Origin: Nitrososphaerota archaeon
GTDB taxonomy: Archaea > Thermoproteota > Nitrososphaeria > Nitrososphaerales > Gagatemarchaeaceae
DNA length: 64,000 nucleotides
Assembly (NCBI GenBank): GCA_029785085.1
Contig: JAFMAI010000002.1
Coordinates: 1 to 64,000, forward strand
Direction of reading: 5' to 3'
A program made the position numbers and the translations under genes. A model generated the notes under the pieces. It worked only from the letters and a program-made list of their open reading frames with translations, was not told the DNA's origin and did not search any database. The first letter of the stretch is position 1. Each line of letters opens with the position of its first letter. Positions 55,704-57,558 of this stretch are shown piece after piece.

Positions 55704-56015
55704 CTATCTAGTCTCTTCGCCGAAGTGGCCCAGTTCCTGCTCCCTCTGCTCGACCTCAATGATGGCTCCCACCATAGAATATGCTCTCAGAAACTCGTAC
55801 CCTCGGGGCGTCATCATGTAGTCTACTCCGTCATCACCTTCCTCGGCTCGTAGCAACCCTTTGTCTGCAAGGAACTGCAGGTACTTCCTCGTCCTATCCA
55901 GGGGCGTGTTGGACGCGTACGAGAGGTGGGTTATCCTCCCTGAGCCGCCGTATGAGTCTATGGCGCGAAGCAGAGAATTGTAGATATCCAGCTTCGACCG
56001 CTTGACTTTCTTCAT
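55704..56015 (-). CDS. Archaeal winged-helix DNA-binding protein
   Basis: 103 residues. The helix-turn-helix (DIYNSLLRAIDSYGGSGRITHLSY, TPLDRTRKYLQFLADKGLL), a wing (GVDYMMTPRGYEFL) and a final helix for dimerisation resemble archaeal Sso10a/PadR-sized regulators. It starts ATG 56015 in an ATGA overlap with the bactofilin-like gene, so the two are made together; it could regulate that protein or anchor it to DNA. Confidence 0.8.
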   Translation of the reverse strand: MKKVKRSKLDIYNSLLRAIDSYGGSGRITHLSYASNTPLDRTRKYLQFLADKGLLRAEEGDDGVDYMMTPRGYEFLRAYSMVGAIIEVEQREQELGHFGEETR

Positions 56016-57226
56016 ACTGGAGGGCTTGGAAGGCCAGAGACCTTCTCGGGCTGGCTGGCGAGGCTGACGTCCTTGCCCAGGTGGAGGGCTTCAGTGTACT
56101 GCAGCGGTCCAGATATCCTGCACCCCCTGCCGACCTCGGCCCTTCTGACGTAGACGCTCCTGAGAGAACAGCCAGCTTCGGCCCAGAGGCTTTCTGCATA
56201 GACATCCTCAGCCTCGGCATTTTCCTTGATCCTGACAGTCTCCCCTACAATCGGTCCTCTCACCCTGGCCCTCCTTGCTATGTCAACCTCTCGGGCCTTG
56301 GACCCCGCCGAAGTAGTAAGTCCTCCACCAATTTCCAGCTTTTCATCCGCCAACACCTTCGTTGCCTCTAGATTCCCACCTACGCCTATGGATCCAGCTT
56401 CCAAAGCTCCTCCGATCTTCGCATCCCCTCCGACCGAAAGCTTGTCTTCGAGTTTCAGGTCCTTGACTACCTCCAGAATCCCCCCAATCGAGACTTTCTC
56501 TCCTTTCCCCGAGCCAATGGTGAGCTGCCCTCCGACACGTATCTCTTCGAAGGTTAGCTCTCCCACGGACCTGAAAATCCCACCGACGCGGACGTCTTCA
56601 ACCTTTCCGCCACCCACCGCGGCAGTCCCTCCCACGGTAAGATCCCCAATATTCACGTCACCGGAGACTTCGACCGTCCCCCCTACGTCCACGTCTTCCG
56701 CTTTGATGGTCTCCGCCCTGAGGTTTCCGCCTACTCGGACGTCATGGGAAATCAGTACCTTAACTTGGAGAGTCCCTCCCACTCTCACGTCATCCGACTC
56801 AAGCTTCGCCCTCGCTTCCAGCGTCCCTCCGACCTTGACGTCTTCCAATTTGGCGTCGCCAGCCAACACTGCAGTCCCCCCCACTCGCATATCATCCACT
56901 TCGGCTCTCCCGCCCACCCTGACGGCATTAGGCACGTCCACATCGCCGGCCCTGAAATCGCCTTTCACATCGAGGCTCGCTCCGTCGTCGAGCCTCACGT
57001 CGCTGGCTTCTAGGCCACCCTCCACCAGAAGATCTCCGTCCCCCCTCACCTCTTCCGCCTTTAGGCTCCCCTTGACGGTAGACCGGCCCCTGACAACGAG
57101 TGTTCCGTGTACCACCACCTGCATCCCTAAGGGGATCACCGTGGAACCTTCGAGGAGCAGGTCGCCATCCGCCTCCGAGATGGTAGCCGTCTTCCCGCGT
57201 TCTACCCTCTCTTCGAATCCGCTCAT
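56012..57226 (-). CDS. Bactofilin-like beta-helix repeat protein
   Basis: 404 residues built of short repeats of the type DVRVGGTLxxxxxLxxE, with a VGG about every 18-22 residues from about 105 to 290. The N- and C-terminal parts follow the same beta-solenoid rhythm (LLVEGG, VRGPIVGETVRIKENAEAED). This is how bactofilin/polymer-forming proteins look, but it is about three times the usual bactofilin length. No signal peptide or membrane helix is seen, so a cytoplasmic filament or scaffold is likely. It is coupled to a winged-helix gene. Confidence 0.75.
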   Translation of the reverse strand: MSGFEERVERGKTATISEADGDLLLEGSTVIPLGMQVVVHGTLVVRGRSTVKGSLKAEEVRGDGDLLVEGGLEASDVRLDDGASLDVKGDFRAGDVDVPNAVRVGGRAEVDDMRVGGTAVLAGDAKLEDVKVGGTLEARAKLESDDVRVGGTLQVKVLISHDVRVGGNLRAETIKAEDVDVGGTVEVSGDVNIGDLTVGGTAAVGGGKVEDVRVGGIFRSVGELTFEEIRVGGQLTIGSGKGEKVSIGGILEVVKDLKLEDKLSVGGDAKIGGALEAGSIGVGGNLEATKVLADEKLEIGGGLTTSAGSKAREVDIARRARVRGPIVGETVRIKENAEAEDVYAESLWAEAGCSLRSVYVRRAEVGRGCRISGPLQYTEALHLGKDVSLASQPEKVSGLPSPPV

Positions 57227-57558
57227 TCGGTCTTCGCCAACTTGGCGGTGATATATCGGCGACTCACATAAAGTGATTACCTCGCGCGCCGTGAATATTT
57301 AGAATAATGAACCCAATCCGTGTCCATGTCAGAAGAAAACGCGAAGAGGAAAAGAGAATCTGAGCGTAACGCGGAGACAACCCACGCGTCAGGTTACGCC
57401 CTGTTCCTCCGCCGATGAAGCCTGAGCCTTCCAGGGGCTCCCGGTCTGGGTCGGGATGACGCACGCGCCGCCGATGATGCAGCTCACCCAGGCGAGCCGG
57501 CTGGGACCGGCCGAACACTTTTACTCTAGAAAGGCGGCATGCCGGGACAGAAGAAGAC
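57227..57558. other. Intergenic region before the DUF1059 gene
   Basis: An AT-rich patch near 57285-57325 could hold the promoter of the bactofilin-like gene on the minus strand. A TTTTACTC box at 57519-57526 precedes the DUF1059 gene. Otherwise nothing is recognised. Confidence 0.35.

Follow-up and report, generated by a model that had tools for sequence, protein, structure and literature searches.

A conserved gene pair of archaea: a long bactofilin-like protein, an Sso10a-like winged-helix neighbour and a candidate operator

When considering how archaea might control a cytoskeletal element, bactofilins deserve attention as one of the few cytoskeletal families common to bacteria and archaea. 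In the window (the whole 64,000-nucleotide stretch of Nitrososphaerota DNA analysed here), a gene for a long protein of the bactofilin superfamily adjoins a gene for a small winged-helix protein, and an inverted repeat, TCAC-N5-GTGA, stands in the bactofilin promoter just ahead of the TATA box. Judging from the sequences, the winged-helix protein is quite probably a regulator dedicated to a single target, the bactofilin, with which it is mostly co-transcribed and on which it would act via this repeat as the operator. The gene pairing, the sequence families, the predicted folds, the conservation of the operator and its fixed geometry relative to the TATA box are what was observed; they suggest that a putative cytoskeletal element of archaea is under the control of an ancient circuit not described before.

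A long predicted solenoid of the bactofilin superfamily

The two open reading frames lie at the coordinates given in the preliminary description, on the minus strand, and share an ATGA (Table 1). Their codon differences from four orthologues are mainly in the third position, for the bactofilin and for the winged helix alike, so that both are real genes. An antisense frame of 341 aa lies over the bactofilin gene on the plus strand (window positions 56226-57251); GC-rich relatives repeatedly show comparable antisense frames, which seem to be by-products of codon use and the repeats.

Table 1. Features of the module in the window, and fusions in other loci (locus:coordinates)
Feature	Position	Strand	Basis
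Winged-helix protein, 103 aa, HTH_45/Sso10a-like, with long C-terminal helix; proposed regulator	55704..56015	-	PF14947, model, nearest structures
ATGA overlap, bactofilin stop and winged-helix start	56012..56015	-	Sequence, relatives
Long bactofilin-superfamily protein, 404 aa	56012..57226	-	PF04519 above cut-off, AlphaFold2 model, family alignments
TATA box of the bactofilin promoter	57251..57255	-	Sequence, conserved position (8 bp past GTGA)
Proposed operator TAATCAC-TTTAT-GTGAGTC (TCAC-N5-GTGA inverted repeat)	57261..57279	-	Phylogenetic footprint, cross-phyla conservation
Operator arms	TCAC 57273-57276, GTGA 57264-57267	-	
Winged-helix-cyclase fusions	L061:5675-6511, L062:6937-7761, L066:5382-6335, L067:1598-2422, L205:4992-5798, L207:5001-5807		
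Winged-helix-KaiC-like ATPase fusions, other lineages of the phylum	L134:1026-2363, L135:1358-2413, L136, L140; L147, L148		

The larger protein scores 37.4 bits against the Pfam Bactofilin family (cut-off 27.9), which also matches 54 of the 55 aligned long members at E <= 0.001. At least ten VGG-containing repeats had been claimed for it, and this part stands: the sequence carries 15 [VI]GG motifs, compared with a mean of 1.9 and a maximum of 8 in shuffled versions. The period of about 20 residues claimed at the same time has to be shortened to 16-17 residues, the motifs being typically spaced by 16-18 residues and the self-identity being maximal at a lag of 17 (0.195 vs 0.176 for the best of 2000 shuffles). 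The AlphaFold2 model, calculated from 55 sequences, is all-beta and confident almost end to end (mean pLDDT 96.7), in accord with the long beta-solenoid that had been anticipated. We read the model as one long continuous solenoid of ~22 turns, a number estimated from the protein length at 16-17 residues per turn. With ~380 residues of predicted solenoid, the protein does not show the canonical layout of a ~100-residue core between variable flanking tails, and we class it as a long variant within the bactofilin superfamily, not as a canonical bactofilin.

A profile of the long-bactofilin family matches the solved bactofilins 6ria (E 0.001) and 2n3d (E 0.0014); the best PDB profile match, stronger than either of these, is a putative tail fibre, so that membership in the superfamily rests mainly on Pfam. 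The whole solenoid model gave no significant Foldseek match in the PDB, perhaps because of its length and repetition, and we do not count this result against the solenoid fold. By inspection, the N-terminus, MSGFEERVERGK, contains no hydrophobic stretch; a hydrophobic N-terminal membrane-binding motif is not universal among bactofilins. The C-terminal tail, P.KV..LP.PPL, is conserved, and the length of the long form is nearly constant (385-450 aa). An extracellular adhesin was considered and rejected, as inspection revealed no signal peptide. Judged solely by its family membership, the protein probably assembles into a scaffold or filament in the cytoplasm.

The same data can be read differently, namely, with the regulator as proposed above and the solenoid as a non-polymerising ruler, binding platform or storage protein instead of a functional bactofilin. 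Such a reading would accommodate a solenoid about four times as long as the canonical core and devoid of long flanking tails (for the canonical form, see PMC12364344), and the narrow range of lengths is what would be expected of a ruler; the tail fibre as the best profile match, the lack of a significant structural match in the PDB and the matches of some members to other solenoid families point the same way. Since PF04519 nevertheless recognises all aligned members except one, and since the family profile does match both 6ria and 2n3d, we consider a non-polymerising solenoid possible but rather doubtful.

The winged-helix protein and the persistence of the pair

The winged-helix protein clearly exceeds the Pfam cut-off for HTH_45 (48.4 bits vs 25.5) and falls short of that of the NCBIfam model for Sso10a (NF053610; 43.3 bits vs 60); hence, we name it Sso10a-like and not Sso10a. 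In its AlphaFold2 model (38 sequences, mean pLDDT 89.8), the winged helix is followed by a long C-terminal helix, a feature of Sso10a, with the final helix comprising residues 70-99. The best Foldseek match of this model is 4hw0 (TM 0.74/0.77), and the nearest folds are those of Sso10a-2 and Sso10a, then AspA; in the comparison of sequence profiles, Sso10a-2 is a clear match and AspA a weak one (E 0.0046). The suspected DNA-binding nature of the partner is thus borne out by a sequence and a fold of the Sso10a type. By search with its profile, the winged helix is a single-copy protein in five of nine genomes.

The conservation of the gene pair, which the preliminary description had left to be checked, is strong and extends across phyla. 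The bactofilin is present in 27 of 151 genomes (the relatives and the window's own), and the winged-helix gene lies directly downstream of it, on the same strand, in 29 of the 30 loci examined in the order; the exception ends at a contig edge, so that all 29 untruncated loci are paired. The ATGA overlap itself is retained in the closest orthologues; elsewhere the two genes lie between a few and some tens of bases apart. In the phylum, a profile search detects the bactofilin in 81 of 398 genomes, with a relative of the winged helix present at 44 of the 60 loci examined. A reverse search of a public genome collection, which used patterns built from paired winged-helix genes with no input from the bactofilin, returned 80 loci; a long bactofilin adjoins the winged helix in 78 of these, and in the remaining two the winged helix is at a contig edge. 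The labels of these records comprise Nitrososphaerales, Bathyarchaeota, Thermoplasmata, Marsarchaeota and Baldrarchaeota (Asgard), and the occurrence of the module in one lineage of Asgard archaea suggests either great age or wide transfer.

Among 142 distinct loci, the winged helix was found downstream of the bactofilin in 99, upstream in 15 and divergent in 11 (that is, adjacent in 125), and was undetected in 17; these loci are mutually related, so that such counts are not independent and p-values overstate, and their gene starts were picked mechanically. The upstream and divergent arrangements are seen in many families, and elsewhere in Thermoproteota adjacency outlasts rearrangement. That the two genes stay together despite being rearranged argues for a functional link, not just for an old operon. 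Sequence distances for one protein correlate with those for the other (r 0.63, 105 loci), a result for which shared ancestry alone could suffice. An all-against-all comparison of neighbouring frames in 170 loci revealed no third conserved partner: only the pair recurs broadly, whereas the ABC exporter, the copper ATPase, the methyltransferase and other neighbours are lineage-specific. A toxin-antitoxin-like pair was also considered and rejected in the absence of any supporting feature.

The module occurs in several variants. One sub-clade has the winged helix and a class III adenylate/guanylate cyclase domain (PF00211; best PDB match 3mr7) joined in one protein, in which the catalytic residues of the cyclase, by inspection of the alignment, are apparently retained; this fusion apparently links the module to cyclic-nucleotide signalling. 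In other lineages of the phylum, a KaiC-like ATPase takes the place of the cyclase as fusion partner; there, the opposite strand carries a gene for a second KaiC-like protein (~252 aa), located between the fusion and the bactofilin. The two kinds of fusion suggest that a nucleotide-dependent input or output has been added in some lineages. Separately, at L167, L168, L169 and L171 (G451, G490, G422 and G430) two neighbouring frames of ~200 aa each stand in for the long bactofilin, with the winged helix still following; this is a natural gene fission of the solenoid.

An inverted repeat of fixed geometry at the bactofilin promoter

When the DNA ahead of the gene is aligned for six close relatives, a conserved island emerges, GTAATCAC-N5-GTGAGTCG, before the TATA box, which itself precedes the bactofilin ATG by only ~25 bp; the transcript is, therefore, probably leaderless. 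The core of this island, TCAC-N5-GTGA, recurs in the same upstream region of other lineages. When the 142 loci were scanned from -400 to +150 relative to the mechanically picked bactofilin start, a spacer of 5 was found in 81 loci, compared with 0-3 loci for any other spacer from 0 to 12 and with a mean of 0.8 and a maximum of 4 TCAC-N5-GTGA in block-shuffled upstream sequences; beyond the scanned range, the same loci contain 36 such sites in 1.13 Mb. The extended consensus of 65 non-redundant sites is roughly TRnTCAC-N5-GTGAnY, the spacer being free in sequence and fixed in length. Most often the TATA box begins 8 bp past GTGA, and its T is found at the fixed offset in 94% of the sites. Some promoters, by inspection, carry two overlapping sites 13 bp apart, of which the TATA-proximal one keeps the 8-bp spacing. 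Where other genes precede the bactofilin, the operator is found at the head of the operon.

The site tends to accompany the winged helix: it is present in 77 of the 125 loci with an adjacent winged helix, as against 4 of the 17 without one. Among the 48 winged-helix loci with no exact site between -400 and +150, many carry a site with a single mismatch near -50 to -65, several have an exact site farther off (400-2000 bp upstream), where a longer operon begins, and some have none. In loci with a separate winged-helix gene upstream of the bactofilin, the site is missing ahead of the winged helix and present ahead of the bactofilin. Five loci (L072, L073, L075, L079, L199) have an ABC ATPase, often together with an ABC-2-type permease, ahead of the bactofilin; in L075 and L079, the exact operator is ~1.9-2.0 kb upstream, likely at the head of the ABC operon. 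A second, shorter bactofilin type (258-279 aa; L173, L185, L191, L192) follows a small uncharacterised gene and a gene for an ArsR-like HTH protein, and no TCAC-N5-GTGA site was found with these four. Short-form relatives with the operator occur in complete genomes of other Thermoproteota, e.g. L186 and L183, so that a cultivable test organism may exist.

It could be argued that the pair is simply an old operon carried along, and that the inverted repeat is the site of some unrelated general regulator. Most loci do show the two genes in tandem (99 of 142, far ahead of any other arrangement), and four loci have the site with no winged helix detected beside the bactofilin, one of them (L080) ending at a contig edge. 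An old operon is, however, hard to reconcile with adjacency that persists in upstream and divergent arrangements in many families, other neighbours not having been retained, and a general regulator with a site that is almost confined to the bactofilin promoter; we regard this explanation as very unlikely.

The number of sites per genome, as counted by pattern searches, bears on a further possibility. The 19-base operator pattern occurs exactly once in the window, and even with up to one mismatch allowed, the same occurrence is the only one in 908 kb of the window's genome (66% complete). The extended pattern is found at a single place, at the bactofilin, in G743, G744, G745, G748, G654 and G418, the G748 site, which matched on both strands, being one place; some genomes give no match to the extended pattern because their site deviates. 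G120, a complete genome from the order, has several further matches to the extended pattern, on contig 1 at 295717, 1298102, 1548871, 1551189 and 1551968, none of them at the bactofilin, so that the regulon may be larger there and may not always consist of one gene.

The preliminary description had also raised the idea of a filament that interacts with the chromosome, for which we obtained no positive evidence, operator-like sites being few per genome, mostly one, and unclustered. In its explicit form, this idea would have the winged helix anchor the bactofilin filament to chromosomal DNA, with the promoter site as one anchoring or nucleation site. It can draw on the resemblance of the winged helix, in profile and fold, to the DNA-architectural Sso10a and the centromere-binding AspA, on the overlapping sites, which could seed spreading, and on the links between bactofilins and DNA segregation in bacteria that are cited in PMC12284271. 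Yet most genomes tested have about one site, which sits in the bactofilin promoter at a fixed TATA spacing and forms no arrays, and the clustering of neighbours, performed with no ParA profile, yielded no recurring ParA/SegA-like family, so that the features of a ParA-type partition system are lacking. Anchoring appears, on balance, quite unlikely.

A putative feedback circuit and its relation to known systems

Returning to the dedicated regulator, we envisage that a dimer of the winged-helix protein would bind the operator, one GTGA half-site per monomer, and, sitting beside or over the BRE, would set bactofilin transcription. The fixed spacing of the site, BRE and TATA box is what one would expect of a protein in contact or in competition with TFB or TBP. 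Since the regulator would usually be made from the same transcript as the bactofilin (in the window, by ATGA coupling), the circuit would be a feedback loop, autoregulatory in most lineages through co-transcription. The autoregulation that had been suggested for the pair thus gains support from the inverted repeat, which is conserved, promoter-proximal and a mark of the bactofilin promoter. We infer that the operator-binding protein is the neighbouring winged helix and that it binds as a dimer; as to the sign of regulation, likewise inferred, our preference leans modestly towards negative over positive feedback.

It is also conceivable, albeit unlikely, that the winged helix senses the bactofilin, i.e. 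that the regulator is bound or released by free bactofilin or by the conserved C-terminal tail; assembly of the scaffold would then control transcription of the scaffold's own gene. If so, the module would be a cytoskeletal homeostat common to Asgard archaea, Thermoproteota and Thermoplasmatota, with the cyclase and KaiC domains serving as extra inputs in some lineages. Whichever reading applies, the retention of one putative regulator, one fixed-geometry operator and one long bactofilin across phyla represents unusual conservation for a transcription circuit, and the module offers a handle on when archaea make the long bactofilin. A limited library, mostly without subscription papers, contained no description of the bactofilin/winged-helix pair or of a TCAC-N5-GTGA operator in archaea.

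With the bacterial bactofilins, such as BacA and CcmA, the window protein shares the Pfam family (PF04519/DUF583), the VGG-type beta-solenoid repeat and the profile match to 6ria and 2n3d. Whereas bacterial bactofilins have a ~100-residue core with variable tails (PMC12364344), its core is of ~380 residues without long variable tails, no hydrophobic N-terminal motif is apparent by inspection, and a putatively dedicated winged helix and a candidate operator are present. The earlier remark that archaeal bactofilins are little studied holds outside haloarchaea; within them, halofilins A and B of Haloferax volcanii are described as bactofilin homologues affecting cell shape (PMC12186497). Compared by description only, the halofilins resemble the window protein in being archaeal homologues of bactofilin, and no winged-helix partner is mentioned in the available text of that review (PMC12186497).

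The Sso10a family, the proteins of which are described as chromatin proteins (PMC4941522), provides the best match of the winged helix in both sequence profile and fold, even if under the NCBIfam cut-off. Unlike Sso10a, the winged helix of the window is tied to a bactofilin gene and to one promoter site. AspA belongs to the ParA-ParB-AspA partition system of plasmid pNOB8 and loads the pNOB8 centromere. It shares with our protein a winged helix of similar fold and the weak profile match noted above, whereas the module described here has neither ParA or ParB among its recurring neighbours nor an array of sites. A scaffold of bactofilin and PadC reportedly organises ParABS in Myxococcus. In Metallosphaera, SegB is described as carrying beta-helix repeats that are distantly bactofilin-like and as acting with SegA (PMC12284271), so that, going by that account, a DNA-binding function and a bactofilin-like beta-helix co-occur in archaea there too; in that case one protein carries both, whereas here they belong to two proteins, and SegA is not among the recurring neighbours. 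The components of the module are, then, of known kinds; the module formed by the long bactofilin, the putative regulator and the candidate operator is, as far as we can tell, new.
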